48,598 nt of DNA from Vineibacter terrae (GTDB lineage Bacteria > Pseudomonadota > Alphaproteobacteria > Reyranellales > Reyranellaceae): the NCBI RefSeq assembly GCF_008039615.1, contig NZ_VDUZ01000064.1, positions 1 through 48,598 of the forward strand, read 5' to 3'. The notes below the pieces were generated by a model, which made no database searches, was not told the DNA's origin, and saw only the letters and a list, made by a program, of their open reading frames with translations. Positions 1,197 through 41,797 of this stretch are shown piece by piece. A program made the position numbers and the translations under genes. The stretch's first letter is position 1. Every line of letters starts with the position of its first letter.

Positions 1197-1763
1197 TCAG
1201 AAGAACACCGTCAGATTCTTCGCCAGCAGCACGTTCTGGTCGAGGATGATCTCGCGGCGCGCCAGCTTCCAGGCGCCGTCGACCCGGCGCAGCGTGTCGG
1301 TGCGCTTGCCGACGAAGATGTAGGTCTCGGTCTCGACCCGGTTCTGGTAGACGAGGAAGCGGCTGCGTGCCGTCACCGTCTGCGGCGCGGCGGCCGAGGG
1401 CAGCGCCTCGAGCAGCTGCACGTTGCTGACCATGTGGCAGATGCGCGACAGCGGCTCCTCGGCCCAGTGCACGCCGGTCATGATCTGCTCGCAGCGCTTG
1501 GCCAGCGTCCACTTGTCCTCCTCGAACCAGCTGATGTCGCTGCCTTCGCGGGTGTTCTCGCGCGCCGCGTGCTCGCCCGCCTTCACGTTTCGGCGCATGG
1601 GCATGAAGTAGACGAGATCGTCGGCCAGCAGGTCGAGCCACGCCGTGTAGCGGCGCTGGTCCAGCAGTTCGGCCTCCTCGTAGAGGAACGCCGCGACCTC
1701 CTCCTTCAGGAGGTAGAAATCCAGGTCCCGCGTCGGGCGCGGCGTGGCGGCGGCATCGTTCAT
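1197..1763 (-). CDS. Aromatic-ring-hydroxylating dioxygenase, beta subunit
   Basis: The small structural subunit of a Rieske-type dioxygenase, with the SnoaL/NTF2-like fold; it stabilises the alpha3beta3 oxygenase and carries no cofactor. The 188 residues match the family size and show typical features: EVAAFLYEEAELLDQRRYTAWLDLLADD near the N-terminus (residues about 22-49, with the E/L/D pattern of the family) and DGAWKLARREIILDQ near the end. Its ATG overlaps the stop of the preceding SDR gene by four bases (ATGA), so translation is probably coupled. The substrate cannot be read from the sequence. Confidence 0.9.
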   Translation of the reverse strand: MNDAAATPRPTRDLDFYLLKEEVAAFLYEEAELLDQRRYTAWLDLLADDLVYFMPMRRNVKAGEHAARENTREGSDISWFEEDKWTLAKRCEQIMTGVHWAEEPLSRICHMVSNVQLLEALPSAAAPQTVTARSRFLVYQNRVETETYIFVGKRTDTLRRVDGAWKLARREIILDQNVLLAKNLTVFF

Positions 1764-2578
1764 GCGGGCGGCTCCTGCGGGGGCGCGTCGGGCCGCGGCG
1801 GGATCGGGCCGCCCTGATGGGCGAAGCAGCCGACATCGAGCACCGTGCCCGAGATCGTGGCCGCCTCGTCCGACAGCAGGAAGGCCACGGCCTGGGCGAT
1901 ATCCTCGCCCACCGCCACGCGCCCGGCGGCCGTGCCCGCGACGCTGCGGCTGGTGAAGCGCCGCACATCGCCGCCGGCCCGGCCGACGCCCATGCCCGAC
2001 ACGATGCCGCCGCCGCCCGGCACCACGGTGTTGACGCGGATGCGCTGATGGAAATGGTCGTAGGCCAGCGCCGCGCCGAGCGCGAACAGCCCGCCCTTGC
2101 TGGCGCTGTAGGCGGCCATGTTCGGCTTGCCCCAGCCGGCGCCGGAGCCGATGTTGACGATGGCGCCGCCGCCCTGGCCGATCATGTGCGGCAGCACCGC
2201 GCGGCAGCAGAGATAGGCGCCCTTCAGGTTCACATCGATGATGCGGTTCCACAGGTCCTCGGGCGTGTCGAGCACCGTGCCCAGCGGCCCGATGGCGGCG
2301 TTGTTGACCAGCGCATCGATGCGGCCATACCTGCCGGCGGCGAACTCCGCGACCCGGGCGACGTCGCCGGCCCTGGACACGTCGGCCTCCAGCACGTCGG
2401 CCTCCAGGCCATGCGCCGCCAGGTCGGCACGCAGCAGCGCGCTGCCGCCGGCTGCCGTGCTCGAGGGCTGCGGCGCATCGAGCCCGAACGCCACGACCTG
2501 CCAGCCGCGCTGCGCCAGGGTGACGCTGATCGCCTTGCCGATGCCGAACGTGCCGCCGCTGACGATGACGACGCGCAT
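1760..2578 (-). CDS. SDR family oxidoreductase, likely cis-dihydrodiol or alcohol dehydrogenase of the dioxygenase operon
   Basis: An NAD(P)-dependent short-chain dehydrogenase of about 272 residues. Visible are the cofactor motif SGGTFGIGKA at residues 7-16, the NNA motif, a catalytic Ser in NIGSGAG and the YSASK active site. The C-terminal part ends in a Pro-rich tail. It lies between the alpha and beta genes, overlapping beta by four bases, so by analogy with BphB/NahB-type enzymes it may oxidise the dioxygenase product; that role is inferred. ATG 2578 was chosen because MRVVIVSGG places the first beta strand correctly. A GTG at 2587, overlapping the alpha-subunit stop, is the alternative. 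Confidence 0.85.
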   Translation of the reverse strand: MRVVIVSGGTFGIGKAISVTLAQRGWQVVAFGLDAPQPSSTAAGGSALLRADLAAHGLEADVLEADVSRAGDVARVAEFAAGRYGRIDALVNNAAIGPLGTVLDTPEDLWNRIIDVNLKGAYLCCRAVLPHMIGQGGGAIVNIGSGAGWGKPNMAAYSASKGGLFALGAALAYDHFHQRIRVNTVVPGGGGIVSGMGVGRAGGDVRRFTSRSVAGTAAGRVAVGEDIAQAVAFLLSDEAATISGTVLDVGCFAHQGGPIPPRPDAPPQEPPA

Positions 2579-2583
2579 GAGGC

Positions 2584-3936
2584 TCACTCGGCGGCGGCGC
2601 GGCGTGGCGTGCCGTCGCGCCGCCCCATCAGCACGTCCCAGTCGCGGCCGGCCAGATAGTCCGACCAGCGGGCATAGAAGCGGCGCGAATTCTCCTCGGT
2701 GATCTGCACGCTGACATGGCCGGCGACGGGGTCGTCGTCCTTCCCGGCGCCCATCGACTGCTGATAGTTCAGAGGATAGCGCCGGGCGATGACGCCGCGC
2801 GCGCCTGCCGTGGCGTAGTTCCAGTTCTCCATGTCATCCTGCTCGGTCATGCCGGCCGGGCCGGAGTAGCGCATGTAGAAATGGCGCAGCAGGTCCTTGA
2901 CCTCGGCCGGTGCATCCTTGTCGACCAGGAAGATGCGCCACACCTCGGTCGATTCGGGGCCGTGCGGATGCCACATGCAGATCGAGCGCGGCTGGCGGCC
3001 GTGATAGGAGCTGTTGGGGAAGATCGTGCCCACGAACGGCAGCAGGCGCGACTTCTCACCCAGGCGGCGCTGGCGCTCCTCGTAGCAGTGGCGGAAATAC
3101 TCTTCGATGACCGGGGTGTCCCTGAACGCCTCGGCATAGGGCATCATCGCCGGCTGGATGGCGCTGTGGATGCCGTGGCCGGCCGGGAAGCTGACCCAGA
3201 CATGCTGCGCGCCCTTGAGCTCGTCATCGCGCCTTCCCTTCGTGCCCGACCGGGCGCTGGGGCCGATGCCGATCATGTCGACCGAGCGATGGCTGGGGTT
3301 GTGGTAGGTGTCGCCGCAGAAATTCTCGGCCGGCAGCTTCCAATTGCACGGGATGATCCATTTGTGCACGCCGAGGAAGGCCTCGGAGCCGCCCTCGCGC
3401 CCGTCACGGCAATCCAGCGCCAGGTCGAGATGCTCCTTGGCGGCGCCGAGATAGTCGAGGAAGGGCGGCGCGTCCTTGTCCCAGGTGGCCCAGATCGTGC
3501 CCTTGTAGTTGGCCATCTGCGCCACCTCGATCAGCGACCACTTCGCGCGATCCATGCCGGGATAGAGCGTGTCGTATTGCGGCACGCCCACCAGCTGGCC
3601 ATCGGTGGCGTAGCTCCAATGGTGGTAAGGGCAGGTGAAGTGCGTGGTGTTGCCTTCATCGTAGAGGCACACCTTCATGCCGCGATGCCGGCAGGTATTG
3701 AGCAGGACGTGGATCCCGCCCGCCTTGTCGCGGCTCAGGATCACCGATTCGGCGCCCATGCGCGAGACGAAGTAGTCGCCCGGGTTGGGGATCAGGCTCT
3801 CGTGGCCCACGAACAGCCAGGCCCGGGTGAAGAGCGTTTCCAGCTCCTGCTGGTAGAGATCCTTGTTGACGAACAGCTCGCGACTGATCAGGCCGTTGCG
3901 CGTGTCGACCAGCCGGTCGGTGTCCAGGCGCGCCAT
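2584..3936 (-). CDS. Aromatic-ring-hydroxylating dioxygenase, Rieske alpha subunit
   Basis: The catalytic subunit of a non-heme iron oxygenase that inserts O2 into an aromatic or related ring. The 450-residue protein has a Rieske [2Fe-2S] site, C82-x-H84 and C102-x2-H105. The mononuclear iron site is at D209, H212 and H216 in GDTYHNPSHRS, with a further carboxylate near DDMENWNYA. The start at 3936 follows a strong GGAGGAA site. It is first in the operon alpha-SDR-beta, and no ferredoxin or reductase gene is nearby, so electron transfer must come from elsewhere. The substrate is unknown; the residues around the iron resemble a benzoate/phenylpropionate-like subgroup, but this is only an impression. 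Confidence 0.93.
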   Translation of the reverse strand: MARLDTDRLVDTRNGLISRELFVNKDLYQQELETLFTRAWLFVGHESLIPNPGDYFVSRMGAESVILSRDKAGGIHVLLNTCRHRGMKVCLYDEGNTTHFTCPYHHWSYATDGQLVGVPQYDTLYPGMDRAKWSLIEVAQMANYKGTIWATWDKDAPPFLDYLGAAKEHLDLALDCRDGREGGSEAFLGVHKWIIPCNWKLPAENFCGDTYHNPSHRSVDMIGIGPSARSGTKGRRDDELKGAQHVWVSFPAGHGIHSAIQPAMMPYAEAFRDTPVIEEYFRHCYEERQRRLGEKSRLLPFVGTIFPNSSYHGRQPRSICMWHPHGPESTEVWRIFLVDKDAPAEVKDLLRHFYMRYSGPAGMTEQDDMENWNYATAGARGVIARRYPLNYQQSMGAGKDDDPVAGHVSVQITEENSRRFYARWSDYLAGRDWDVLMGRRDGTPRRAAAE

Positions 3937-4040
3937 CCGCTTCCTCCATCTTGTTGGCGCGATGATACGCCGGCCGGGCCGGCTCATGAACCCTGCGGTT
4001 GCGGGGCAGCCCTGCGCCAGCCGGCGCCAAGCCGCCGCTA

Positions 4041-4060
4041 CTCCCAAATGGCAATATCGT
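4041..4060 (+). promoter_or_regulatory. Upstream motif shared with position 5116
   Basis: CTCCCAAATGGCAATATCG lies 99 bases upstream of the metallopeptidase start. A close relative lies 103 bases upstream of the next plus-strand gene at 5219. Common promoter or operator function is inferred from this equal spacing alone. Confidence 0.3.
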
Positions 4061-11448: not shown

Positions 11449-11476
11449 GTCACGCCTGCTGGGTCACGCCTGCTGG
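11449..11476. repeat. 14-bp tandem duplication at the racemase gene end
   Basis: GTCACGCCTGCTGG occurs twice in direct succession. The second unit contains the minus-strand stop codon of the racemase gene, and the first unit follows it. This is a likely replication-slippage duplication with no effect on the protein. Confidence 0.8.
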
Positions 11477-12621
11477 CTGATGACGCCCGCCTTGGTCAGC
11501 TCGGCGACCTCGGCTGACGAGAAGCCGTGCTCGGCCAGCACCTCGGCGGTGTTGCTGCCGCGCTTGGGGGCGGCGCCCTGCACTTCCTCCTTGGTGCGGC
11601 TGAAGCGCGGCGCCGGTGCCGGCTGCATGAAGCCGGCGACATCGACATAGGCGTTGCGCGCCTTGGCCGCCGGATGATGCGGCGCCTCGCTCATCGTCAG
11701 CACCGGCGCGAAGCAGATGTCGCTGCCCTCCATGATGGCGCACCACTCGTCGCGCGTCTTGGTCTTGAAGATCGCCTCCAGCCGCGACTTCATCTGCGGC
11801 CAGGCCGCACGGTCGTGCTGCGCCGGCAGCTCCTGCCCCTTCAGGCCGGTCTTCTCCAGCAGCAGCTCGTAGAACTGCGGCTCGATCGAGCCGATCGAGA
11901 CGTACTTGCCGTCCTTGGTCTCGTAGGTGTCATAGAAGTGCGCGCCGCCATCGATCATGTTGACCTCGCGCTCCTTGTCGTTCCAGAGGCCGGCGCCGTT
12001 CATGCCGAAGATCCCGCCCATCAGCAGCGCCGCGCCATCGACCATGGCGGCGTCGATCACCTGGCCCTTGCCCGACTTCTGGGCCTCGAGCAGGCCGCAC
12101 ACCATGCCGAAGGCCAGCAGCATGCCGCCGCCGCCGAAATCACCCGCGAGATTGAGCGGCGGCACCGGCTTCTGGCCCTTGCGGCCGATGGCATGCAGCG
12201 CGCCGGTGAGCGCGATGTAGTTCTGGTCATGGCCAGCCGCCTTGGCCAGCGGCCCGTCCTGGCCCCAGCCCGTCATGCGACCGTAGACCAGCTTGGGATT
12301 GCGCTTCAGGCACACCTCGGGGCCGATGCCCAGGCGCTCGGCGACACCGGGGCGGAACGGCTCCATCAACCCGTCGGCCTTGGCGCACAGGCGCAGCACC
12401 ACCTCGGCGCCTTCCGGCTTCTGCAGGTCGACCGCGACGGACCGGCGGCTGCGGCCATGGACGTTGAACTTCGGGTCGGCGATCCGGTCCGGAAGACGTG
12501 TCTTGACCCGATCGACGCGAATGACGTTGGCGCCCATGTCACCCAGCATCATGGCCGCCATCGGCCCGGGGCCGATGCCCGCCACCTCGATCACCGTGTA
12601 CCCCGTCAGCGGTCCTGACAT
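11464..12621 (-). CDS. Alpha-methylacyl-CoA racemase-like CaiB/BaiF family enzyme
   Basis: A 385-residue member of the class III CoA-transferase fold. Within it, H131 in GHDQNY and D161 in NLAGDFGGGG match the His/Asp acid-base pair of 2-methylacyl-CoA racemases. Epimerisation of a 2-methyl (or 2-substituted) acyl-CoA is therefore more likely than CoA transfer, which uses an Asp in a different context. The start at 12621 has AAGGAGA six bases upstream. It is downstream of the acyl-CoA ligase gene on the same strand, but a 143-bp gap with its own operator-like motif suggests an extra promoter. Its place in the cluster suggests it prepares the right stereoisomer for the acyl-CoA dehydrogenase. 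Confidence 0.88.
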   Translation of the reverse strand: MSGPLTGYTVIEVAGIGPGPMAAMMLGDMGANVIRVDRVKTRLPDRIADPKFNVHGRSRRSVAVDLQKPEGAEVVLRLCAKADGLMEPFRPGVAERLGIGPEVCLKRNPKLVYGRMTGWGQDGPLAKAAGHDQNYIALTGALHAIGRKGQKPVPPLNLAGDFGGGGMLLAFGMVCGLLEAQKSGKGQVIDAAMVDGAALLMGGIFGMNGAGLWNDKEREVNMIDGGAHFYDTYETKDGKYVSIGSIEPQFYELLLEKTGLKGQELPAQHDRAAWPQMKSRLEAIFKTKTRDEWCAIMEGSDICFAPVLTMSEAPHHPAAKARNAYVDVAGFMQPAPAPRFSRTKEEVQGAAPKRGSNTAEVLAEHGFSSAEVAELTKAGVISQQA

Positions 12622-12652
12622 TGCCGTCTCCTTGTGTCTTAGTGTTGTTCTG

Positions 12653-12666
12653 ATATCGGAATATCG
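12653..12666. promoter_or_regulatory. Candidate IclR-regulator site upstream of the racemase gene
   Basis: ATATCGGAATATCG lies about 32 bases before the racemase ATG. Its first 12 bases are identical to a stretch overlapping the perfect palindrome at 16393. On the gene's strand a TATAAG box lies just upstream of it, so a bound protein could block the promoter. The function is inferred from the shared sequence and position. Confidence 0.5.
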
Positions 12667-12764
12667 TTCTTATACTGGATGTTAATGGCTTGCCTTCCGC
12701 CTGGGACGCAACCCAAACCGCCGATACGCCGCGCATGCCTGATATGACACCGCGCGCCGCGGCC

Positions 12765-14321
12765 TCATGACCTCTTGGCCGCGACCGCGCGGCCATCATC
12801 CGGGGCCGCATCCTGACCGAGGATCAGGTTGCGCAGGTCGCCCTTGACCACCTTGCCGGTGAGGTTGCGGGGCAGCGACGGCAGGAAGACGAACCGGCGC
12901 GGCACCTGGAAGCGGCTGAGACGCTGGGTGCAGAAGCCGGCGACGTCGATATCGGCCGGTGCGCCCGATCCCGGCCTGAGCACGATGGCGGCGCAGATCA
13001 TCTCGCCCCAGGCGCGGTCGGGCAGGCCGACGCAGGCCACCTCGGCCACCGCAGGGTGGCGGGCGATGACATCCTCGACATCGGCGGCCGGCACGTTGAT
13101 GCCGCCTGTCTTGATGATGTCGCGCTTGCGGCCGACCAGGAACAGGAAACCCTCGTCGTCGAAGCGCCCGAGGTCGCCCACGCTCACCATGTCGCCGCGC
13201 CGGGTCTCTGCCGTCAGCTCGGGCTCGTTGAGGTACTCATCGTATTGCGAGGCGCCGCGCACGCAGATCTCGCCGACCGCGCCGGTCGCGACATCGTGCC
13301 CGTCGTCGTCAAGCAGCCGCACCTCCGAGCCGAAGAACGTGCGCCCGATGCCGCTGGCGGTCTGATCGCGCAGGATGTCGCGGCCCTTGAGGTTGGCGTA
13401 GGGACCCGACTCGGTCGAGGCGGCGTAGGTGCTGAGCACGTAGCCCAGCTTGTCGACCACGGCCGCGCGCGTCTCGTAGGACAGGGCGCCGGCGGCGTTC
13501 TGGATCAGGCGCAGCGACGGGCATTTCAGGCTGGCAAAGCCTTCATAGTCCACCAGCCGCTGCACCAGGGTCGGGATCATGAAGGTGGAATTGATGCCTT
13601 CAGCCTCGAGCAATCCCGCGACCCGCTGCTCGTCGAAGTCCGGCTCCAGATACAACGTGGCGCCGAGATAGAGCGGCAGCAGGCTGTAGCCATAGCCGTA
13701 GGACAGGCACAGCGGCATCACGCCCAGCGTGCGGTCGTCCTGCGTGAAGCCCTGCTCGATCGCCCGCGCGCTCAACCCCCAACGGGCGCGCAGCGCCCCC
13801 TTGGGCCGGCCCGTGGTGCCCGAGGTATGCAGCAGCGCCAGGTTGGTGGCCGCTGTCCAGTCGAACGCCAGCGGCCGCGCAGCGGCGATCAGCGTGTCGA
13901 TCGCGTCAGGCGCGGCGCCGGATGCCGCCGGGCCGAGCGACAGCAGGCGCGCCTGCGGCAGCGCCTGCGACAACAGATCGGCATGGCCGCCATAGCCCGG
14001 CCCCAGCACCACCACCTTGGCGGCGCTGTTGCGGGCGATGAAGGCGATGTCGTCGTCCTTGAGGCGGTAGTTGATCGGGGCCGGGCTGGCGCCCAGCCCG
14101 AGCGCGGCGAGCATCACCGCCAGCATGTCGGGATGATTCTCCGACAGGAGGCTGACGCGGTCGCCGGCGCCCACGCCCTGCGCTGCCAGCAGCGCGCCCA
14201 GCCGCGCCACACGATCGTAGAGCTGGGCGTAGGTACAAGCCTCGCCCGCGAACACGATGGCGGGCTTGCGGGGATAGCGGCGCGCGTTCAGAAACAGCGC
14301 GCGCGTGTAGAGCATGTCCAT
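12765..14321 (-). CDS. AMP-forming acyl-CoA synthetase
   Basis: A 518-residue ANL-superfamily ligase that activates a carboxylic acid with ATP and CoA. The P-loop is LLHTSGTTGRPKGA, followed by YGYGYSLLPLY; the adenylate contacts are STYAASTESG and GDLGRFDDEGF, the hinge is VGRKRDIIKTGG, and the C-terminal catalytic Lys is in LTGKVVKGDL. The set is complete, so the enzyme should be active. The start at 14321 has GAGGA seven bases upstream. It follows the broken binding-protein gene in the same direction and is followed by the racemase gene. Chain length or ring type of the substrate cannot be read from the sequence. Confidence 0.92.
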   Translation of the reverse strand: MDMLYTRALFLNARRYPRKPAIVFAGEACTYAQLYDRVARLGALLAAQGVGAGDRVSLLSENHPDMLAVMLAALGLGASPAPINYRLKDDDIAFIARNSAAKVVVLGPGYGGHADLLSQALPQARLLSLGPAASGAAPDAIDTLIAAARPLAFDWTAATNLALLHTSGTTGRPKGALRARWGLSARAIEQGFTQDDRTLGVMPLCLSYGYGYSLLPLYLGATLYLEPDFDEQRVAGLLEAEGINSTFMIPTLVQRLVDYEGFASLKCPSLRLIQNAAGALSYETRAAVVDKLGYVLSTYAASTESGPYANLKGRDILRDQTASGIGRTFFGSEVRLLDDDGHDVATGAVGEICVRGASQYDEYLNEPELTAETRRGDMVSVGDLGRFDDEGFLFLVGRKRDIIKTGGINVPAADVEDVIARHPAVAEVACVGLPDRAWGEMICAAIVLRPGSGAPADIDVAGFCTQRLSRFQVPRRFVFLPSLPRNLTGKVVKGDLRNLILGQDAAPDDGRAVAAKRS

Positions 14322-14345
14322 GTGGTGATCCTCATGCGCACGGCA

Positions 14346-15292
14346 TCAGTCGAGCCTGGCGCCCGACTGCTCGATGATCGTCTTCCACTTGCTCTGCTCG
14401 GCCCGGATGAATGCGGCGAAATCTTCGCCAGCCAGATTGAATGATGCACCGCCGAGCCTCCTGATCGTCTCGACGACAGCCGGCTCCTGGAGGGTGCGGC
14501 TCACCTCCGCCTGCATGCGATCGACGATCGGCTTGGGCGTTCCGGCCGGGAAGAACATCCCGATCCAGGCCACGGCCTGTGCTTGCGGATATCCCGCTTG
14601 CCCGCCTGGATGTGGGGAAACGTCGATGCCGTGAAGTCCAGGCTCAGGTCGACCTGGCCGCCCAGCAGATCGGCCATCGCCGGCGTGCTGCCCTTGTACG
14701 GCACGTGCAGGAACTTGACGCCGGCCGTCCTCTGGAACAGCTCGGAGACCAGGTGGCTTGACGTGCCGTTGCCGGCGGATGCGATCGACAGCTTGCCGGG
14801 GTTCTGCCGGGCGTAGTCGACGAGATCCTTGAGTGTGCGATACGGCTGATCGGCCCTCAGGACCAGGCCGGTCGAGATCGACAGGAGGGAATGGACCGGA
14901 ATGAAGTCCTTGGCCGGATCGAACTTCAGGGATTTGTAGAGATACTGGTTGGCGGCGTGCGTGCCCTGCGTGCCCATCAGGATCGTGTAGCCGTCCGGTG
15001 CGGCCCGCGCGACGAACTCGGTTGCCAGGTTGCCGCCGGCGCCGCCGCGGTTGTCGATCAGGACACGTTCGCCGAGCCGCGCCGTCAGCCTGTCGCCGAT
15101 CACGCGTCCCAGCTGGTCGATGAGCCCGCCCGGCGGCGCGGGGTTGACGAAGGTCACCGGCTTCGAGGGATACACACTTTGTGCGAGAGCTGATGGCGCC
15201 GTCGCGATGGCGGCCGCACCGACCAACGGGCCAAGCACCCTGCCGGCACGGCGGCCAATCCGACACATCAGGTCATGTAGACGACGACGCAT
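14346..15292 (-). pseudogene. TctC/Bug family tricarboxylate-binding protein, disrupted by a deletion
   Basis: A second copy of the binding-protein gene next door, closely similar along most of its length. The first frame reads from a signal peptide (ending SALAQS) through the conserved YPSKPVTFV, NRGGAGGN and HVPYKG motifs to HIQAGK. Compared with the intact neighbour, about 70 bp are then missing near 14596, which shifts the frame: the rest (AVAWIGMFFPAGTPKPIVDR to the stop at 14346) continues in another frame. About 23-27 residues of the hinge and second lobe are lost. The deletion is not a multiple of three, so the product is truncated to about 263 residues with a wrong tail. It lies in a tandem pair, so it probably arose by duplication and then decayed. 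Confidence 0.85.
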
Positions 15293-15334
15293 GTTCCCAC
15301 CCTTCTGCCTGTTGCTGCTGGCTGTGGTTCCGGC

Positions 15335-16336
15335 TCACTGGAGCTTGGCGCCCGAGCGTTCGATGATCGCTTTCCACTTGCCGTGCTCGGACTGCGTGAA
15401 GGCGGTGAACGCCTGGCCGCCGATGTTGAACGGCGTGCCGCCGAACTTGCGGATCGCCTCGAGCACGCTGGCCTCCTGCAGCGCGCTTGCCGTCTCCGCC
15501 TGCAGGCGCGCGACGACCGCGGCCGGCGTCCCGGTGGGCGCGAACAAGCCGATCCAGGCCACCGCCTCGGCCTGCGGGTAGCCCAGTTCGGCGATCGTCG
15601 GCACATCCGGCAGAGTCGACAGCCGTGCCGGTCCGGTGACGGCCAGCGCGCGCAGCTTGCCGGCCTGGATATGCCCCAGGGTCGTGGCTGCGAAATCGAA
15701 GGCGAGATCGACCTGGCCGCCCAGCAGATCGGCGATCGCGGGCGCGTTGCCCTTGTAGGGCACGTGCAGGAACTTCACCCCGGCAGCCGTCTGGAACAGC
15801 TCGCCCACCAGATGGGTCGACGTGCCGTTGCCGGCCGACGCCATCGACAGCTTGCCGGGATTCTTCTTCGCGTACTCGATGAGGTCCTTGATCGACCGGT
15901 ACGGCCGCTCGCTGTTCACGACCAGCACGGTCGAGATCGAGATCAGGGCCTGGATGGCCACGAAGTCCTTGGCCGGATCGAACCGCAGCGATTTGTAGAG
16001 ATACGGGTTGGACACCTGCGTGCCCTGGGTGCCCACCAGCACGGTGTGGCCATCGGGCGCCGCACGGGCGACGAACTCGGCCGCCAGGTTGCCGCCGGCG
16101 CCGCCGCGGTTGTCGATCAGGATCCGCTGGCCCAGCCGTTCCGACACCCGGTCGCCGATGACACGCGCCACCTGATCGGTGATCCCGCCCGGCGGCGCCG
16201 GCACAACGAACGTCACCGGCTTGGCCGGATACGCGTCCTGGCCCTGGGCCGGCGCGACGGCCGCAACGGCGAGCGCCGTCAGCATTCCCATGACGATGCC
16301 GGGCCGACGGCAAGTCAACACCTTGATTCCACGCAT
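15335..16336 (-). CDS. TctC/Bug family tripartite tricarboxylate transporter substrate-binding protein
   Basis: A 333-residue periplasmic carboxylate-binding protein with a signal peptide cleaved after about residue 33 (AQGQ before DAYPAKP). Conserved Bug-family blocks are YPAKPVTFVVPAPPGG, NRGGAGGNLAAEFVARA, ASAGNGTSTHL and HVPYKGNAPA. ATG 16336 was preferred because it starts a normal signal peptide; an upstream ATG at 16369 adds a charged extension. There are no TctA or TctB membrane genes here, as is usual for the many orphan Bug proteins of alpha- and betaproteobacteria. It is first in the minus-strand group and faces the IclR gene across a palindrome. It is likely the uptake sensor for the acid degraded by this cluster. 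Confidence 0.92.
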   Translation of the reverse strand: MRGIKVLTCRRPGIVMGMLTALAVAAVAPAQGQDAYPAKPVTFVVPAPPGGITDQVARVIGDRVSERLGQRILIDNRGGAGGNLAAEFVARAAPDGHTVLVGTQGTQVSNPYLYKSLRFDPAKDFVAIQALISISTVLVVNSERPYRSIKDLIEYAKKNPGKLSMASAGNGTSTHLVGELFQTAAGVKFLHVPYKGNAPAIADLLGGQVDLAFDFAATTLGHIQAGKLRALAVTGPARLSTLPDVPTIAELGYPQAEAVAWIGLFAPTGTPAAVVARLQAETASALQEASVLEAIRKFGGTPFNIGGQAFTAFTQSEHGKWKAIIERSGAKLQ

Positions 16337-16392
16337 ATTTCCATCCCTATCTCGATGATCTGTCCGCATTTGCCGCCGAATCTTGATTGACG

Positions 16393-16410
16393 ATTCCGAT
16401 ATATCGGAAT
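16393..16410. promoter_or_regulatory. Perfect 18-bp palindrome, candidate IclR operator
   Basis: ATTCCGATATATCGGAAT is a perfect palindrome in the divergent gap between the binding-protein gene and the IclR gene. The following bases extend it to ATATCGGAATATTG, 12 bases of which recur in front of the racemase gene at 12653. Length and position fit an IclR-family operator controlling both directions. Binding itself is inferred. Confidence 0.65.
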
Positions 16411-16489
16411 ATTGTACGGCTAATCGGATTCATTGCCTTATTTGGCGGCGACGTCAAGGGGCCGATGACGCAGCCATCGAAGGACAGCC

Positions 16490-17230
16490 ATGCCGACCCT
16501 GATTCCAGCGGCCAGCCGTGCGCTTGCAGTGTTCGAGGTGTTCGCGCGCGAGAAGCGCGAGCTGTCCAATTCGGACATGGCCCGGTTCCTGTCCGTGGCC
16601 GACAGCAGCTGCTCGGACCTGCTGCACACCCTGCATTCGCTGGGCTACCTGATGCGCACGTCGCGCACGCGCCGCTTCTATCCCACCGGACGCCTGCACG
16701 AGATCGCACGCCAGATCGCCGAGAACGACCCGCTGACGACGGTGGGCCGCGAGGCGGTGGAGCTGCTGGCCGAGCGCGCCAACGAAAGCGCCTCCTTCGG
16801 GATCATCGACACCACGGCGGTGAAGGTCGTGGCGGCGCAATCCAGCAAGCACCCGCTGCGCTACATCTTCGATGTCGGCGAGCGGGTCGCCTTCCATGCA
16901 TCGGCCCTGGGCAAGGCCCTGCTGGCGCTGCTGCCACGCGAGGAGGCGCTGGCGGCGCTGCAGCGCCGGACGCTGCGCCAGGTCACACCGCACACGATCA
17001 CCAACATCGACCAGATCCTCGCCCAGCTCGAGCAGGGCCGCGAGCGCGGCTGGTACGAGACCCGCGGCGAAGGCACCGAAGGCGTCACCGCGCTCGCCGT
17101 CTCGGGCCGGCTGGGCGGCCAGCCGGTGTCGATGTCGCTGGTCGGCCCCACCGAGCGCATGGAGCGCAACCGCGAAGCCTATCTGCGGGTCCTGCAGGAC
17201 GTGCGCCGCACCATGCTCGCGGGCGACTGA
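16490..17230 (+). CDS. IclR family transcriptional regulator
   Basis: A 246-residue regulator with an N-terminal winged helix (LSNSDMARFLSVADSSCSDL followed by LHTLHSLGYL) and a C-terminal effector domain (SALGKALLALLP, RGWYETRGEGTEGVTALAVS) typical of IclR proteins that sense small carboxylates or their CoA esters. AAGGA precedes the ATG by six bases. It sits at the divergent point of the cluster and heads the plus-strand genes, so it most likely controls both halves through the ATATCGGAATAT sites. Whether it represses or activates is not visible. Confidence 0.9.
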   Translation: MPTLIPAASRALAVFEVFAREKRELSNSDMARFLSVADSSCSDLLHTLHSLGYLMRTSRTRRFYPTGRLHEIARQIAENDPLTTVGREAVELLAERANESASFGIIDTTAVKVVAAQSSKHPLRYIFDVGERVAFHASALGKALLALLPREEALAALQRRTLRQVTPHTITNIDQILAQLEQGRERGWYETRGEGTEGVTALAVSGRLGGQPVSMSLVGPTERMERNREAYLRVLQDVRRTMLAGD

Positions 17231-17261
17231 CACGCCTCACGCATCGCCATCAGGAGACATC

Positions 17262-18011
17262 ATGGATCTGGGACTCAAGGATCGCGTCGCCATCGTCACC
17301 GGCTCGGCGCGCGGCATCGGCGCGGAGACGGCGCGCATGCTGGCCAGCGAGGGCATGGCCATCGTGGTCAGCGACATCGACGGCGACGGCGCCGTGGCTG
17401 CGGCCAAGGCGATCGCGGACAACGGCGGCAAGGCGATCGGCGTGCGCTGCGATGTGCGCCGGGAAGAGGATGTGCGCGCCATGGCCGGCGCCGGCCGTGA
17501 CGCGTTCGGGCGCATCGATGTGCTGGTCAACAACGCCGGCCTGGTGAAGGACCGCAGCCTGCTGAAGATGGACGAGACCGACTGGGACCTGGTGCTCGAC
17601 GTCACGCTGAAGGGCGCGTTCCATTGCTGCCGCGCCGTGCTGCCGGCCATGCACGAGCGCAAATGGGGCCGCATCATCAACATCACGTCGCGGGCGCTGT
17701 TCGGCAACCCCGGCCAGGCCAACTACTCGTCGGCCAAGGCCGGCCTGGTGGGCTTCACGCGCGCGCTGTCCCTGGAGCAGGCGCGCAACGGCATCACCGT
17801 CAACGCCATCGCGCCCGGCTTCATCGAGACCGAGTACATCCAGAGCCTGCCCAACTACGCCCATGTGCGCGACAACGCGCTGGCGAAGAACGCGGTGCCG
17901 TTCGGCGGCGAGCCGCGCGACATCGCCTCGGCCGTGGCCTTCCTGGCCTCGGCGCACGCCCGCTACATCACCGGCACCACCCTGTTCGTGACCGGAGGCC
18001 GCTATGGATGA
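17262..18011 (+). CDS. SDR family oxidoreductase, FabG-like
   Basis: A 249-residue short-chain dehydrogenase with TGSARGIG (about residues 13-20), NNAG, ITS and YSSAK motifs and the closing IAPGFIETE and GTTLFVTGG segments, that is, a complete classical 3-oxoacyl-(ACP/CoA) reductase or 3-hydroxyacyl-CoA dehydrogenase type. AGGAG stands six bases before the ATG. Its last eight bases overlap the start of the acyl-CoA dehydrogenase gene, so the two are coupled. It may oxidise a hydroxyacyl-CoA made by the MaoC hydratase; this is inference. Confidence 0.9.
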   Translation: MDLGLKDRVAIVTGSARGIGAETARMLASEGMAIVVSDIDGDGAVAAAKAIADNGGKAIGVRCDVRREEDVRAMAGAGRDAFGRIDVLVNNAGLVKDRSLLKMDETDWDLVLDVTLKGAFHCCRAVLPAMHERKWGRIINITSRALFGNPGQANYSSAKAGLVGFTRALSLEQARNGITVNAIAPGFIETEYIQSLPNYAHVRDNALAKNAVPFGGEPRDIASAVAFLASAHARYITGTTLFVTGGRYG

Positions 18012-19161
18012 GATCGACGCCGACGGCCTGTCGCCCGAGCAGCGCCTGCTGCGCGACAATGTGCGGCGCTACCTGAAGGAGCATCTGGCGCCCCTCGTCC
18101 AGAAGAGCGAGGCGGAGAAACGCTTCCCCTTCGAGGCCATGACCGGGCTCGCCGATTTCGGCTATTTCGGCGGCTACCTGCCCGAGGATGCCGGCGGCCT
18201 CGGCCTGGACTACCTGACCTGGGCGGTGCTGATGGAGGAAGCCGGCTACTGCTGGCTGTCGCTGCGCGTGCTGCTGAGCGGGCTGAACATCGTTTCGGGC
18301 ATCATCAACACCTGCGGCACCGAGGTGCAGAAGGATCGCTTCATGCGGCCGCTGCTGCGCAACGAGCGCCGCACGTTCGTGTCGATCTCCGAGCCCGGAG
18401 TCGGCTCGAACGTGGCCGAGATCAAGACCCGCGCCGACAAGCGCGGCGACCGCTACGTGCTGAACGGCAGCAAGCTGTGGATCACCAACGGCATGTTCGC
18501 TGATTTCGGCATCGTCGTGGCGCGCACCTTCAGCGACACCTGCGATGGCGGGCTGTCGCTGTTCCTGGTCGAGAAGGCGCAGACGGCGTTCGAGCAGCGC
18601 CCGGTCGAGACGATGTTCGTGCGCAGCACCGGCACGGCCGCCTTCACGTTCGAGAACGCCGAGGTGCCGGCAGCCAACCTGCTGGGCCGCGAGGGCGAAG
18701 GCCTGAAGCAGGTCCTGATCGGCCTGAATTTCGGCCGCCTGAACGTCGCCATGGGCGCCGTCGGCGCGGCTCAGTGCGCGCTCGACCTGTCGATCGAGTA
18801 CGCCCGCGCCCGCACCCAGTTCGGCCGCCCGATCGCCTCCTTCCAGCTGGTGCAGAAGCACATCGTCGACATGACGATGAAGACGCAGGCCTCGCGCGCG
18901 TTGGGCTATCGCGCCGCACGCGCCATGCAGACGGGCCAGGCGCGCTCGGAATGCTCGATCGCCAAGCTCTACGCCACCGAGGCGGCGCACCAGGTCGCCA
19001 ACCTGGCGCTGCAGGTGCATGGCGGCATGGGCTACGCCACCGAGTATCCGATCGAGCGCATCTTCCGCGACACCCGCGGCGGCATGATTCCCGAGGGCAC
19101 GACCGAGATCCAGACCCTGATCATCGGCCGCGAGATCCTCGGCATCTCGGCCCTGACCTAG
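18004..19161 (+). CDS. Acyl-CoA dehydrogenase
   Basis: A 385-residue FAD flavoprotein that introduces a 2,3 double bond into an acyl-CoA. Family signatures are ISEPGVGSN, KLWITNG, QFGRPIASFQ, QVHGGMGY and PEGTTEIQ; the Glu at about 364 in the last one is at the usual catalytic-base position. The sequence most resembles the short/branched-chain and glutaryl-type group. It overlaps the preceding SDR gene by eight bases. Electron transfer to ETF is expected from the family. The specific acyl group is unknown. Confidence 0.93.
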   Translation: MDEIDADGLSPEQRLLRDNVRRYLKEHLAPLVQKSEAEKRFPFEAMTGLADFGYFGGYLPEDAGGLGLDYLTWAVLMEEAGYCWLSLRVLLSGLNIVSGIINTCGTEVQKDRFMRPLLRNERRTFVSISEPGVGSNVAEIKTRADKRGDRYVLNGSKLWITNGMFADFGIVVARTFSDTCDGGLSLFLVEKAQTAFEQRPVETMFVRSTGTAAFTFENAEVPAANLLGREGEGLKQVLIGLNFGRLNVAMGAVGAAQCALDLSIEYARARTQFGRPIASFQLVQKHIVDMTMKTQASRALGYRAARAMQTGQARSECSIAKLYATEAAHQVANLALQVHGGMGYATEYPIERIFRDTRGGMIPEGTTEIQTLIIGREILGISALT

Positions 19162-19179
19162 GCTCGGACCCGTCAGAAG

Positions 19180-19293
19180 AAACCACAGAGGCACAGAGAC
19201 ACAGAGGCCGCACAGAGAAAGGACGATCGCGCGCGGCGGCGCGCAACTTTTCAATCTCTGTGCCTTCTCTGTGCCTCTGTGTCTCTGTGGTTG
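19180..19293. repeat. CACAGAG-rich long inverted repeat
   Basis: The left arm, AACCACAGAGGCACAGAGAC, and the right arm, GTGCCTCTGTGTCTCTGTGG, are near-complementary over more than 30 bases around a G+C-rich centre. It lies between the acyl-CoA dehydrogenase and MaoC genes, so it may weaken or end the upstream transcript. The motif family is common in unrelated bacterial intergenic regions. Confidence 0.8.
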
Positions 19294-19319
19294 CCTTCAC
19301 GGCAACATCAGGAGACAGC

Positions 19320-19820
19320 ATGAGCAATCCGTCCGTCATCGAGGCCGTGGCGCAGGCGGCCATCTACTGGGAAGACCTGCCGGTCGGCACCCGCTACACC
19401 ACCTCCTCGCGCACCATCACCGAGGCCGATGTCGCGGCCTTCGCGGCGCTGACCGGCGATTTCAACCGCCTGCATGTCGATGCCGAATACGCCAAGGCCA
19501 GCATCTACGGCCAGCGCATCGCGCACGGCATGCTGGTGGCGTCGTTCATGGCCGGCCTCACCTCGCGCTCGATCCCCAACCAGCTGATGGAAGGCGCGCT
19601 CTTCGGCGTGCTGCAGAACACGCTGAAGTTCCCCAGGCCGACCTTCATCGGCGACACCATCCGGGTCGAGATCGAGGTCGTCGAGCAGCGGCCCACCAGC
19701 CGGCCCGACCGCGGCCTGATCAGCTTTCTGCGCAAGGCCATCAACCAGCGCAACGAGGTGGCCGCCGAGCTCGGCGCGACGTGCCTGCTGAAGCGCCGCA
19801 ACCCGGCGGTGGCATCATGA
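19320..19820 (+). CDS. MaoC-like acyl dehydratase
   Basis: A 166-residue hot-dog-fold hydratase. The active-site region TGDFNRLHVDAEYAKASIYG, followed by QRIAHGML, has the Asp/His pair of (R)-specific enoyl-CoA hydratases and of itaconyl/mesaconyl-CoA hydratases. AGGAG precedes the ATG by five bases. Its stop overlaps the start of the citrate-synthase-like gene by four bases (ATGA), so the two enzymes are probably made in equal amounts and act in succession. Hydration of the enoyl-CoA produced by the neighbouring dehydrogenase is the natural reading. Confidence 0.9.
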   Translation: MSNPSVIEAVAQAAIYWEDLPVGTRYTTSSRTITEADVAAFAALTGDFNRLHVDAEYAKASIYGQRIAHGMLVASFMAGLTSRSIPNQLMEGALFGVLQNTLKFPRPTFIGDTIRVEIEVVEQRPTSRPDRGLISFLRKAINQRNEVAAELGATCLLKRRNPAVAS

Positions 19821-20599
19821 CCCAGGCCGTCGTGAAGACCGATATCGGCTACACCACCACCGACACCATCATGGTGCGCGGGCTCAACCTCGCGACCGAG
19901 ATCATCGGCACGTTCGACTTCGTCGACATGATCTTCCACACCATGCTGTCGCGCCGGCCAAGCCCGCAGGAAAAGGCGATGGTCAACGCCCTGCTGGTGA
20001 CCACGGCCGACCACGGCATCACCCCCAGCTCGCTTGCCGCGCGGCTGACCTATATCGGCGCGCCCGAGGCGCTGCAGGGCGCCGTGGCCACCGGCCTGCT
20101 GGGCGCCGGCAGCGTGTTCCTGGGCACGATGCAGAACGCCGCCGAGATGCTGTGCGACGCCGCCCGGCCACTCGCCGCCGACACCGACGACGCGGCAATC
20201 CGCGACGCGGTGCGCGACTTGATCCGGCGCCACAAGGCCGAGCGCCGCGCCATCTACGGCGTCGGCCACCCGATCCATGTCGATGGCGACCCGCGGGTGC
20301 CGGCGCTGCGCGAGGTGTCGCGTGCCAACGGCTTCTTCGGCGTGCACTGGCGCATGATGGACATGATCGCCGCGGTGCTGGCGAGCGAGCATGGCAAGAA
20401 GCTGCCGGTGAACGCCGTCGGCGCCATCGCGGCGATGGTGGCGGCCATGGGGCTGGACCCGCTGATCGCACGCGGCCTGTCGCTGGTCGGCCGCTCGGCC
20501 GGGCTGCTGGCCCACATCCTGGAGGAGAAGGAGGCACCCATGGCCCGCGAGGCCTGGGAGCTGGTGCTGCGCGCCGACCCGCGCAACGTGCTGCCGTGA
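19817..20599 (+). CDS. Citrate synthase superfamily protein, citryl-CoA-lyase-like
   Basis: A 260-residue protein, far shorter than citrate synthase (about 400 or more). It keeps two recognisable active-site blocks: TTADHGITPSSLAARLT, whose H66 matches the first catalytic His, and GVGHPIHVDGDPR, whose H151 matches the second. I could not locate a clear equivalent of the third catalytic residue (Asp375 of pig citrate synthase). Short members of this superfamily include citryl-CoA lyases, which cleave a 3-hydroxy-3-carboxyacyl-CoA to acetyl-CoA and a 2-oxoacid. With its gene coupled to the MaoC hydratase, a final C-C cleavage step is plausible. The reaction is inferred. Confidence 0.8.
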   Translation: MTQAVVKTDIGYTTTDTIMVRGLNLATEIIGTFDFVDMIFHTMLSRRPSPQEKAMVNALLVTTADHGITPSSLAARLTYIGAPEALQGAVATGLLGAGSVFLGTMQNAAEMLCDAARPLAADTDDAAIRDAVRDLIRRHKAERRAIYGVGHPIHVDGDPRVPALREVSRANGFFGVHWRMMDMIAAVLASEHGKKLPVNAVGAIAAMVAAMGLDPLIARGLSLVGRSAGLLAHILEEKEAPMAREAWELVLRADPRNVLP

Positions 20600-23329: not shown

Positions 23330-23719
23330 TCAGGCCGCAGCGACGAAGCGCGGCACGGCGCGGTCGCCGAAAGGCGCGACCGTGGCCCGCACCCGCGCCC
23401 CGATCGCCAGCGACGGATCGGCGTGGGCCATCATGCGCACCCCCTCGTCGAGGTCGACCAGCGCGATGGCATAGGGTGCGAAGGGCTGCAGCGCCGCCGA
23501 CGGCGGGCGGTGCACGACGGTAATCGAGAAGATCGTGCCGGTGCCGGCCGCCGTGCGCATCGCGACCTTCGCCGAGCCGCAGGCCGTGCAGTGGCCGCGG
23601 GGATAGAACTGTGCCGCGCCGCAGTCGGTGCAGGCCTCGTAGCCGATCCGGCCCTCGGCGATCCCGGCCCACCAGTCGCGCGCGATCGGATCGGCGGACA
23701 CGTTCGTTGCTTCTGTCAT
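23330..23719 (-). CDS. DUF35 Zn-ribbon / OB-fold protein, thiolase partner
   Basis: A 129-residue protein with a rubredoxin-like zinc ribbon, C30-x2-C33 and C44-x2-C47, followed by an OB fold (GTGTIFSITVVHRPP, YAIALVDLDEGVRMMAH). Proteins of this type form complexes with SCP2-thiolase-like or aldolase subunits and can bind acyl-CoA. Seven bases separate it from the stop of the thiolase-like gene, so the two are co-expressed. What the complex does is not known. Confidence 0.88.
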   Translation of the reverse strand: MTEATNVSADPIARDWWAGIAEGRIGYEACTDCGAAQFYPRGHCTACGSAKVAMRTAAGTGTIFSITVVHRPPSAALQPFAPYAIALVDLDEGVRMMAHADPSLAIGARVRATVAPFGDRAVPRFVAAA

Positions 23720-23726
23720 GCCTACC

Positions 23727-24860
23727 TCACACCCGCTCCAGCACCATCGACACGTGCGATGACATCACGCCGCCGTCGCCGTGCACGAAGCCGACCGTCG
23801 CGTCCTTCACCTGGCGCCCGTCGGCGCGGCCGGCGAGCTGGCGCTGGGTCTCGACCAGATGCGCCAAGCCACCGCCGACCCCGCAATGACCGAACGACAA
23901 AAGGCCGCCATGCGTGTTCAGCGGCAGGTCGCCGTCGACGTCGAACCGCCCGGCCCGTGCCGCCTCGCCGGCGCCGGCGCGGCGCACGAAGCCGATCTCC
24001 TCCAGCAGCATGGCGAGCGTGATGGTGAAGGAGTCGTAGACCGCGAGATAATCGATGTCGGCGGTCCGCATGCCGGCATCGGCGAAGGCGCGGTCGGCGG
24101 AGGCCTTGGCGCCCATGGCGGCCCAGTCGCGGGCGCAGGAGATGTGCTGGTGCAGATGGGCCTGGCCGGCACCGCGGATGCGCACGCGCGCCGCCGCCGT
24201 GGGCTCGCGCGTGATGATCGCGGCGATGCCGCCATCCGACACCGGGCAGCAGTCGAGCAAGCGCAGCGGCAGCGCGATCGGCTTGGACGCCATCACCTCT
24301 GCGGCCGTGATCGGCGTGCGCAGATGGGCATCGGGATGCCGGCCGGCGTGACGGCGCATCACCACCGCCAGCTCGGCGAGATCCTCGTCGGTGACGCCGA
24401 ACTGGTGCATGTAGCGCGCCGCCAGCAGGCCATAATAGGCCGGGATGGTGGCGCCATAGGGTACCTCGTAGTCGGGATGGCCGGCCTGGGCCAGGGTCTG
24501 GATCGCCTGGTCGCGGCTCTGGCCGCTGGCACGGTTCTCGGCGGCGACGATCAGCACCGCGCGGCAGCGGCCGCCGTCGACCAGGATCTTGGCCAGCATG
24601 GCCATGGCCACGCCGGTGGCGCCGCCGGCCTGCAGGGCATGCGCGTAGGCCGGCTGCACGCCCAGCCGCTCGGCGATCACCGTCGCCAGCATGATGTGCG
24701 GCATGGTCGTGGCGTAGCCGGTGAGCAGGCCGTCGATGTCCTGCGGCTTCAGGCCGGCGTCCGCCATGGCGGCCTGGGCCGCCGCGGCCGCCAGGCTCAT
24801 GGTGGTGCTGCCGTCGATCTTGCCGTAGCGCGTGTTGCCGACGCCGGAAATGAAAGCCAT
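23727..24860 (-). CDS. SCP2-type thiolase-like protein lacking the usual nucleophilic Cys
   Basis: A 377-residue protein of the thiolase superfamily, SCP2/non-specific-lipid-transfer branch. The start at 24860 follows AGGAGGAG. The fold is recognisable from ISGVGNTRYGK at the N-terminus to HGGLLSFGHCGVGGGLAH at the C-terminus. At the position of the acyl-accepting Cys (around residues 75-82, AHALQAGG) there is no Cys, so a classical Claisen thiolase reaction is unlikely. In DUF35-paired relatives that act as aldolases on CoA thioesters other residues do the work, which could apply here. The downstream DUF35 gene is the expected partner. Confidence 0.85.
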   Translation of the reverse strand: MAFISGVGNTRYGKIDGSTTMSLAAAAAQAAMADAGLKPQDIDGLLTGYATTMPHIMLATVIAERLGVQPAYAHALQAGGATGVAMAMLAKILVDGGRCRAVLIVAAENRASGQSRDQAIQTLAQAGHPDYEVPYGATIPAYYGLLAARYMHQFGVTDEDLAELAVVMRRHAGRHPDAHLRTPITAAEVMASKPIALPLRLLDCCPVSDGGIAAIITREPTAAARVRIRGAGQAHLHQHISCARDWAAMGAKASADRAFADAGMRTADIDYLAVYDSFTITLAMLLEEIGFVRRAGAGEAARAGRFDVDGDLPLNTHGGLLSFGHCGVGGGLAHLVETQRQLAGRADGRQVKDATVGFVHGDGGVMSSHVSMVLERV

Positions 24861-24921
24861 CGCAACTCCTCCTGCCGGCGACCATAGCCCGCCGATGGCG
24901 CGCCACTCCAGTGCTGCCCTC

Positions 24922-25069
24922 ATCTCCTCTCCCGCCGTGCGGGAGGGGAAGGGACCCATCGCGTCAGCGATGGGAAGGCGAGGGGTTAGGGACGAGGCAT
25001 CTTGTCCTTGGGCCCTCACCCGCCGGGCGCTTACGCGCCCGGCGACCTCTCCCGCTCGCGGGAGAGGTT
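24922..25069. repeat. Dispersed palindrome, family B, copy 2
   Basis: Paired segments CCTCTCCCGCC...GGGAGGGG at the left and CCTCTCCCGCTCGCGGGAGAG at the right enclose GGACCCATCG/CGATGGG and a GCCGGGCGC/GCGCCCGGC hairpin. It fills the divergent gap between the thiolase-like and acyltransferase genes. Its right half is very like that of copy 4 at 33806. Confidence 0.85.
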
Positions 25070-37697: not shown

Positions 37698-38474
37698 GCG
37701 CCGGCTTCTATCGAAAGCGCCCACGCTCCGGAAGCGGCCCTGAAGGGTTGGCCTCCGGCGAACGGCGGGGCAGTTGCAACGGGCAGCTCCGGCCGTCAGG
37801 ACCGCGCCGGCCGAGATGGCGTGCTGAAGTGTTGTTGCGCGAAGATTTGCGCGAATTCGATTGTGCAGCAAAGACAAGGGCTTGCGGGGACTGCGGGGAC
37901 TTGCGCAAATCATTTGCGCAAGTCCCGGGGGCGCCTTCCGGCCGGCCATGAGACCGGCGAAGTCCGGTTCGCGATACGGCGTGCGGAAATTGCGCAACCC
38001 CGTTGGACGCACCGGCATCGCGGAAGCCCGCAGGTTCGCCGGCTGACCCGACCCCATGCGCGAGACACGGGTTGCGGAAATTGCGAAAGTCCGCTGGGCA
38101 CTGGCTGGACGGGCCCGCCGGGTTCGCGCCGACGATAGGGCCTGCGTTGTCGCCGGGAAGCACGGATCCCAGGCGGGGCAGCCGTGAGTTCACCCGGCGG
38201 GTTGCGGGAATTGGGAAGGCTATCTGTCTCACGGTGGGGTTCTACGAGATCGGCTTCCGAAAGCATCCGCAAGCCAACAGGTTCAAGACCAGGAGAGATG
38301 GACTCTCCTCCTGCCCGCTTTTTGTATCAGGGTTCCGATCTGGAAACAAGAACAAAAAATGAACAACCACCCGGGCGTCGCGTCCAGGCGAAGGCGGATC
38401 AGCCTGAGGACGACCGGCATCGGCAGCAGGCCACGGGCCGCCGGCCGCATCCGGCCCACCCAATCGGTGCGCGC
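37698..38474. other. Long non-coding region with scattered TTGCGCAA-type repeats
   Basis: No convincing gene. The stretch holds several short direct and inverted repeats: TTGCGCAA three times between 37901 and 37997, TTGCGGAAATTGCG at 37982 (one base shorter at its start) and 38073, and a relative TTGCGGGAATTGGG at 38203. A 7-bp hairpin AGGAGAG/CTCTCCT at 38291-38309 is followed, eight bases on, by a T-run, like a weak terminator on the plus strand. It marks the truB-side border of the insertion between rbfA and truB and contains no tRNA. Confidence 0.5.
37896..37926. repeat. Perfect 15-bp inverted repeat
   Basis: GGGACTTGCGCAAAT and its exact complement are separated by a single base. It would make a very stable cruciform or hairpin, placed 200 bases upstream of truB. 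It is the strongest of the TTGCGCAA repeats in this region. Confidence 0.85.
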
Positions 38475-39528: not shown

Positions 39529-39671
39529 CGGTTTGCTAGGTCAAGCGTAGCTGCCAGCACTTTACGGCGCTCCCATCTTGACGCCGCAGACGGGATGCCG
39601 ACGATGGCGCGGGCGCGGCCGGACTTGCGCCGCCCGCTGCGGCACGACAGCAACGACGGATGCGGACGGCC

Positions 39672-40043
39672 ATGTCGCGTGACTTTCCGGAGCGGGATTG
39701 GAGGCTCCTGCGGGAGCTGAAGCCCATTGCGCTCGATCGGCTCTGTCAGCGGACCCTGGGTGAGGTTCAGGCGCTCTGCGCAGACGCCGGCAAGACGAAC
39801 CACCAGCGCTATCTGGCGCTTTGGGACATGATCCGCGAGCGCGACGATGAGCTCGCCGGAGCTTTCGACGACCTGCGACGCTCCACGGCAGTATGGCGCC
39901 TTACGGCCATGCGGCAGCTCGGCGTGCTGACCGACGATGAGTTTGGCCGCTTCAGCGAGGAAGTGCGTGATTCCGTGTTGACGGCAATCGAGATCCTGGG
40001 CGCAGCTCGCGGCGGCCGCAGCAAGCGGTCGAAGAAAGAATGA
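39672..40043 (+). CDS. Hypothetical protein
   Basis: A 123-residue, almost wholly helical, highly charged protein (MSRDFPERDWRLLRELKPIA, then LTDDEFGRFSEEVRDSVLTAIE) ending in a basic tail, GGRSKRSKKE. It has no membrane or signal segment. I recognise no family; the composition suits a small cytoplasmic or nucleic-acid-associated protein. ATG 39672 was chosen over ATG 39660; neither has a clear ribosome-binding site. It follows the decayed helicase on the same strand within the island. Sequence quality and normal codon use argue it is expressed, but function is unknown. Confidence 0.6.
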   Translation: MSRDFPERDWRLLRELKPIALDRLCQRTLGEVQALCADAGKTNHQRYLALWDMIRERDDELAGAFDDLRRSTAVWRLTAMRQLGVLTDDEFGRFSEEVRDSVLTAIEILGAARGGRSKRSKKE

Positions 40044-41761: not shown

Positions 41762-41797
41762 AGGCCTCGATGGTGTGGACGCCCCCCGACCCCCTGA

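Follow-up and report, generated by a model that had tools for sequence, protein, structure and literature searches.

A citrate-synthase-fold protein as a candidate 3-oxoacyl-CoA cleaving enzyme in a carboxylic acid degradation cluster of Vineibacter terrae

Gene content of the cluster

The window analysed here is a stretch of 48,598 nucleotides of Vineibacter terrae (contig NZ_VDUZ01000064.1), from a genome of 8.76 Mb in 135 contigs. Among named relatives, Reyranella sp. CPCC 100927 (hereafter L005; lyase-like protein 96% identical) is the closest. Between positions 11464 and 20599 the window carries a set of degradation genes, the last of which encodes a protein of the citrate synthase superfamily that is automatically named citryl-CoA lyase and that we call the lyase-like protein. 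In this soil bacterium, the usual final carbon-splitting enzyme of acid breakdown is apparently replaced by a relative of citrate synthase. Specifically, with a confidence just above even, we read the unit from its sequence as a beta-oxidation-like breakdown of a dicarboxylic or 2-methyl-branched acid, in which cleavage of a 3-oxoacyl-CoA by a citrate synthase fold would take the place of thiolase. The features of the cluster are the following.

11464-12621, minus strand: 2-methylacyl-CoA racemase, AMACR/MCR type (PF02515; 398 bits to MCR 1x74 / 9i2t)
12765-14321, minus strand: AMP-forming acyl-CoA ligase (PF00501 and PF13193; a 90% identical gene in the same place in L005)
14346-15292, minus strand: second tctC, broken (PF03401 split over two frames)
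15335-16369, minus strand: TctC/Bug-type carboxylate binding protein (PF03401, 279 bits)
16490-17230, plus strand: IclR-family regulator (PF09339 and PF01614)
17262-18011, plus strand: FabG-like short-chain dehydrogenase/reductase (SDR; PF13561), proposed 3-hydroxyacyl-CoA dehydrogenase
18004-19161, plus strand: acyl-CoA dehydrogenase (PF02771/PF02770/PF00441; nearest solved structures 1ukw and 4o5m)
19181-19292, no strand: imperfect palindrome with 54-nt arms, a dispersed repeat between the acyl-CoA dehydrogenase and MaoC genes
19320-19820, plus strand: MaoC-type enoyl-CoA hydratase (PF01575; solved relatives include 1q6w and the (R)-specific hydratase 1iq6), probably (R)-specific itself
19817-20599, plus strand: protein of the citrate synthase fold (NCBIfam NF004868) that lacks equivalents of His274 and Asp375, proposed to break a C-C bond of 3-oxoacyl-CoA

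All eight gene types named in an original prediction, which had been made from the sequence alone, are present in this interval, and the ATGA overlap that it described between the MaoC and lyase-like genes is real (19817-19820). As the set sits on two divergent strands, it does not form a single operon. The racemase aligns with the HD and GD motifs of MCR, whose His and Asp we take to be the catalytic pair, so that similarity and motifs together place it in the AMACR/MCR type. The ligase belongs to the AMP-forming family and is the probable enzyme of substrate activation, the identity of its substrate being something that we infer. Alignment of the broken tctC with the intact L005 copy (339 codons) showed that 70 bases are missing and the frame is lost. 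The palindrome, made of CACAGAG units, is no part of the pathway: a 24-mer of its arm occurs at 31 genome sites with up to two mismatches (reversed control, 0), some of them facing pairs about 80 bases apart, and in L005 the gap between the dehydrogenase and MaoC genes is only about 11 bases.

A citrate synthase fold without its catalytic residues

The lyase-like protein, of about 260 residues, has the citrate-synthase-like fold found in citryl-CoA lyase and in the C-terminal module of ATP citrate lyase. The catalytic His and Asp, which we number as His274 and Asp375 of pig citrate synthase (the latter D1026 of ACLY), are absent from all 50 family rows and present in both the citryl-CoA lyase of Hydrogenobacter thermophilus (6hxp) and the genome's own citrate synthase. 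Their loss does not mark the SDR-linked members only, because members without an SDR also lack both. Retained are His66/His151 and Arg160/Arg226, on the oxaloacetate side of the citrate synthase site. The window protein scores 347 bits with NF004868 (named citryl-CoA lyase, cut-off 193 bits) and 150.8 bits with NF004869 (cut-off 212), the best-scoring model for the solved lyase. The 6hxp segment scores 377.7 bits with NF004869 and 200.8 with NF004868; since it also passes the latter, the NF004868 cut-off alone cannot tell the two apart.

Having lost two residues on which its relatives rely, the protein probably does not catalyse the reaction of its database name. Moreover, with both residues absent in all rows, the automatic name is no basis for concluding that an organism has citryl-CoA lyase or runs a reductive citrate cycle, whatever the reaction may be. 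Passages of PMC2864759 state that the Cupriavidus metallidurans CH34 genome has no citryl-CoA synthetase/lyase route; CH34 encodes a 43% identical relative of the window protein, whose product was therefore not counted as such an enzyme in those passages. A second NF004868 paralogue of the window genome (G000:C1:331412-332140; L002, L125), 44% identical, also lacks the His and Asp; its neighbours include an SDR gene and one for an enoyl-CoA hydratase-like protein.

These residues bear directly on the end reaction of the original prediction, a citramalyl-type split to acetyl-CoA and a 2-oxoacid. More generally, a retro-aldol CoA lyase would split a 3-hydroxyacyl-CoA, citramalyl-type or other, straight to acetyl-CoA and a ketone, aldehyde or 2-oxoacid, leaving the SDR to act on another intermediate or product. 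We regard this as the main rival explanation and as unlikely. It draws on the fold shared with citryl-CoA lyase and on the direct coupling of the MaoC gene in the window, but the His and Asp that enolisation calls for are missing in all 50 family rows and the protein falls below the NF004869 cut-off. In addition, according to the passages of PMC10115795 on ACLY, an Asp-to-Ala mutant formed no acetyl-CoA where the wild type did.

The loss of both residues is also compatible with a protein devoid of catalysis of its own, which weighs against a cleaving enzyme. A non-catalytic model of the citrate synthase homology domain of ATP citrate lyase is argued in passages of PMC10115795, and the lyase-like protein could likewise assist an acyl-CoA synthetase by loading CoA or by an allosteric effect. 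Its neighbours were compared over 69 loci, namely 47 of 48 homologue loci (the incomplete L051 was left out) and 22 from plasmid records; linkage is counted on the strand of the lyase-like gene and within 6.5 kb, and the loci do not count as independent, eight of them, from roseobacters, being near-identical. An ADP-forming synthetase gene is linked in 41 of them, bringing together both modules of ATP citrate lyase. No such gene occurs in the window cluster, however, nor linked in L005, L015 and L016, where the protein is still 78-96% identical with its invariant residues included, and these residues are also kept in members linked only to a CoA-transferase III gene. A partner role of this kind is therefore improbable in our estimate. 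Still less credible is a misannotated, degenerate paralogue without special chemistry that travels in horizontally moved clusters. The clusters do seem mobile, with near-identical roseobacter copies partly on conjugative plasmids, and the window cluster contains the broken tctC; nevertheless, 20 invariant columns across 36 members, at identities down to 31%, point to selection for function.

Gene neighbourhoods and the supply of 3-oxoacids

The most constant partner of the lyase-like gene is the SDR, linked in all 47 loci of the window's clade and in 58 of the 69 overall; from the 110 SDR matches in the window genome we calculate that a chance SDR neighbour would occur at about 8% of places. 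The order IclR-SDR-dehydrogenase-MaoC-lyase is found in 15 loci, counted whether or not an ADP-forming synthetase gene is also present. That synthetase gene lies between the MaoC and lyase-like genes in 40 loci, so direct coupling is not general. At least one of AMP ligase and ADP-forming synthetase occurs in 55 loci: the ligase alone in 14, the synthetase alone in 28 and both in 13. The two thus seem to perform the same activation in most cases. The conserved co-occurrence expected by the original prediction thus stood for a core, but none of the 69 loci showed all eight genes together, and in the closest relative, L005, the racemase is not beside the lyase unit. Two dehydrogenase-like genes, and no racemase, occupy the 3.1 kb beyond the L005 ligase, and the racemase is consequently unsupported as a fixed member. 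Of the branched substrates predicted, a 2-methyl-branched acid is plausible, since 11 of the 69 loci have a racemase gene of 45% identity or more nearby.

In the genus, three of the four genomes searched (the window's own included) match the lyase-like protein, two of them at 96-100% identity. In the family, 11 of 75 genomes exceed the NF004868 cut-off, compared with 0 of 14 control genomes. Outside Reyranella the best matches, at 75-82%, are nearly all from Burkholderiales, and for this reason the core has probably moved between classes; the carriers include, besides bacteria, the haloarchaeon of L062. Closely similar versions of the cluster occur in several roseobacter genera (L029-L034, L050, L052, L055, L064). 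Two of these, L055 and L064, are plasmid-borne; both plasmids were typed as conjugative, TRAP transporter genes are present, and the L055 cluster adjoins IS66 genes.

Four kinds of neighbourhood point, at the level of gene content, to 3-oxoacyl-CoA cleavage. The first is the set of the window, where dehydrogenase, MaoC and SDR would together make a 3-oxoacyl-CoA in a unit that has no thiolase itself; throughout the window's clade the lyase-like gene is accompanied in this way by an SDR. The second is L059 of Rhodococcus rhodochrous BX2, where genes for a catechol-type dioxygenase and a muconate cycloisomerase-like protein, catC and pcaD precede an AMP ligase gene that overlaps the lyase-like gene; of their products, PcaD alone exceeds its NCBIfam cut-off. 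Here ligase and lyase-like protein appear to occupy the place of the 3-oxoadipate CoA-transferase and thiolase, which we take to be PcaIJ and PcaF. Thiolase_N has no match on the whole 423-kb plasmid of L059, nor on the 154-kb plasmid of L063, and 13 matches on the R. opacus plasmid of L074, all elsewhere on that plasmid.

The third kind (L063, L074, L114, L115) combines the lyase-like gene with a CoA-transferase III gene and an intradiol dioxygenase, which, if of the hydroxyquinol type, would yield a 3-oxoacid directly. For the dioxygenases of L063, L074 and L114, the top-scoring chain that bears the name (chloro)hydroxyquinol dioxygenase gives 191-299 bits, and no catechol or chlorocatechol dioxygenase exceeds 116 bits. 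No match to the L054 iron alcohol dehydrogenase was found in the 21 loci searched, hence no maleylacetate reductase of that kind was seen. LeuC- or LeuD-like genes occur in L063, L072, L074, L113 and L120; maleate hydration is presumably within the activities of LeuCD-like proteins. The fourth kind is L070, in which a 3-oxoacid CoA-transferase adjoins the lyase-like gene.

Several neighbourhoods weigh against this interpretation. Eleven of the 69 loci have no linked SDR; four of them have another likely 3-oxoacid source (L059, L063, L070, L074), and the other seven (L060, L061, L065, L067, L069, L071, L072) show none that is evident. L072 resembles the L074 cluster, yet no intradiol dioxygenase was found in it. 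L061 and L069 combine dehydrogenase, ligase, enoyl-CoA hydratase and aldehyde dehydrogenase without an SDR, a set that suits a retro-aldol lyase because such a split gives an aldehyde. LeuCD-like genes and a CoA-transferase III adjoin some members, and the former could supply 2-hydroxyacids to the same reaction. Aldehyde dehydrogenases are near 15 of the 69 loci. In L039-L048, one lies upstream together with an iron alcohol dehydrogenase, which fits either interpretation. On the other hand, no aldehyde dehydrogenase was matched in the window, 3-oxoadipate in L059 offers no hydroxyl to a retro-aldol enzyme, and a retro-aldol split, the citramalyl type included, leaves the SDR, the most constant partner, without a role in the sequence of steps.

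As to thiolases, a tblastn search with 12 thiolases of the genome found none in 11464-20599. A gene that we take to be an SCP2-type thiolase (23727-25019; matched by PF22691 and weakly by PF00108) lies 3.1 kb downstream with a ChsH2-like partner, a zinc-ribbon/OB-fold protein; the pair (23330-25019) is on the minus strand and separated from the lyase-like gene by three other genes. A claim of no thiolase nearby at all is thereby ruled out for the window. The SCP2-type gene is also present in L005 at 92% identity, and may therefore have a role in the route, a further point against replacement of thiolase. Among the 69 loci, eight surrounding stretches contain thiolase-superfamily genes, for which the best-scoring queries are non-classical; the three certain classical queries (L078, L080, L081) matched L022 only, and weakly, and the reading frames of two more (L079, L082) are doubtful.

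This bears on the possibility that the lyase-like protein belongs to a side branch of the citrate synthase fold with thioesterase-like or decarboxylating activity and no C2-C3 split, and that thiolysis is left to another thiolase of the genome such as the SCP2-type one. The conserved pair and the 12 above-cut-off Thiolase_C (PF02803) matches elsewhere in the genome, none of them on the window's contig, are in its favour. However, in the other seven of the eight loci with a match the thiolase is only 25-35% identical to that of the window, the L059 plasmid has no thiolase match, and a terminal thioesterase in a degradation route would waste the activation. We consider this side branch quite unlikely, more so than the retro-aldol reaction.

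Elsewhere in the window, a Rieske-type ring-hydroxylating dioxygenase alpha subunit adjoins an SDR at 1760-4047 (minus strand). At 38000-42631, DNA of lower G+C (0.605 at 38001-40000) precedes the genes of a Fic-domain protein (40496-41761) and of a PhyH-family dioxygenase (41798-42631).

Proposed route and relation to known systems

Taken together, protein families and gene context suggest that an imported carboxylic acid is degraded by a beta-oxidation-like route which has no thiolase of its own. TctC would bind the acid and the AMP ligase convert it to its CoA ester; the racemase, where linked, may set the stereochemistry of a 2-methyl group. The acyl-CoA dehydrogenase would give the enoyl-CoA, MaoC the 3-hydroxyacyl-CoA and the FabG-like SDR the 3-oxoacyl-CoA, which the citrate-synthase-like protein would split. 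Its ketone may be held by His66/His151 and Arg160/Arg226 and hydrated to a gem-diol. This gem-diol resembles the tertiary alcohol of citryl-CoA, so the same bond break as in a true lyase would yield acetyl-CoA, or propionyl-CoA from a 2-methyl substrate, and the second product would be a free acid rather than a ketone. Overall, this would be a hydrolytic retro-Claisen step; a thiolytic variant with free CoA as nucleophile may operate instead. The activation, dehydrogenation and hydration of the original prediction, with a short citrate-synthase-like protein last, are supported and its observation was correct, but its end reaction is not the best one.

More tentatively, and at somewhat less than even confidence, proteins named citryl-CoA lyase (NF004868 and relatives near NF004867) may be widespread retro-Claisen hydrolases of the citrate synthase fold, standing in for thiolase in routes of the beta-oxidation-like, beta-ketoadipate and hydroxyquinol kinds. 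In a hydroxyquinol route, a CoA-transferase-III protein would make maleylacetyl-CoA from maleylacetate, the lyase-like protein would cut it to acetyl-CoA and maleate, and a LeuCD-like hydratase would convert maleate to malate, bypassing maleylacetate reductase. If so, the citrate-cycle label is wrong for a family carried by bacteria and at least one haloarchaeon, and the citrate synthase fold is capable of a reaction new to it. A common chemical logic would then underlie many orphan TctC/IclR clusters in Burkholderiales, in roseobacters and in Rhodococcus, and aromatic degradation would have a way around both maleylacetate reductase and thiolase that can be put to the test. Among openly licensed PMC full texts, we found no paper that brings together citryl-CoA lyase, thiolase and 3-oxoadipate, none that does so for citrate synthase, retro-Claisen chemistry and thiolase, and none for citryl-CoA lyase and maleylacetate; the matches listed there for related topics contained no such proposal in their titles and abstract starts, which is not proof of absence.

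Among known systems, itaconate degradation uses Ict, Ich/RipB and a CitE-type citramalyl-CoA lyase. The window cluster shares with it CoA activation and a MaoC-type hydratase, but the window MaoC scores 52 bits against a RipB_Ich cut-off of 340 and no CitE-family match was found among the scanned cluster genes; with the missing His and Asp, this led us to reject the itaconate/alkylsuccinate reading. With the citryl-CoA lyase of H. thermophilus and the C-terminal module of ATP citrate lyase the family shares the fold, and it differs in lacking the catalytic pair, in its best NCBIfam model (NF004868, against NF004869 for 6hxp) and in its setting in catabolic clusters, that of the window having no citryl-CoA synthetase. 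Compared with the PcaF-type thiolase of the beta-ketoadipate pathway and beta-oxidation, the proposed substrate class and pathway position are alike, whereas the fold is unrelated and the proposed product is a free acid. Finally, IpdAB, the COCHEA-CoA hydrolase of steroid degradation, is described in passages of PMC5380842 as a CoA-enzyme fold, that of CoA-transferases, which lacks a signature catalytic residue and performs hydrolytic C-C cleavage. The likeness is one of principle: the folds are unrelated, IpdAB acts on a ring, and the activity demonstrated for IpdAB is for the lyase-like protein a proposal.

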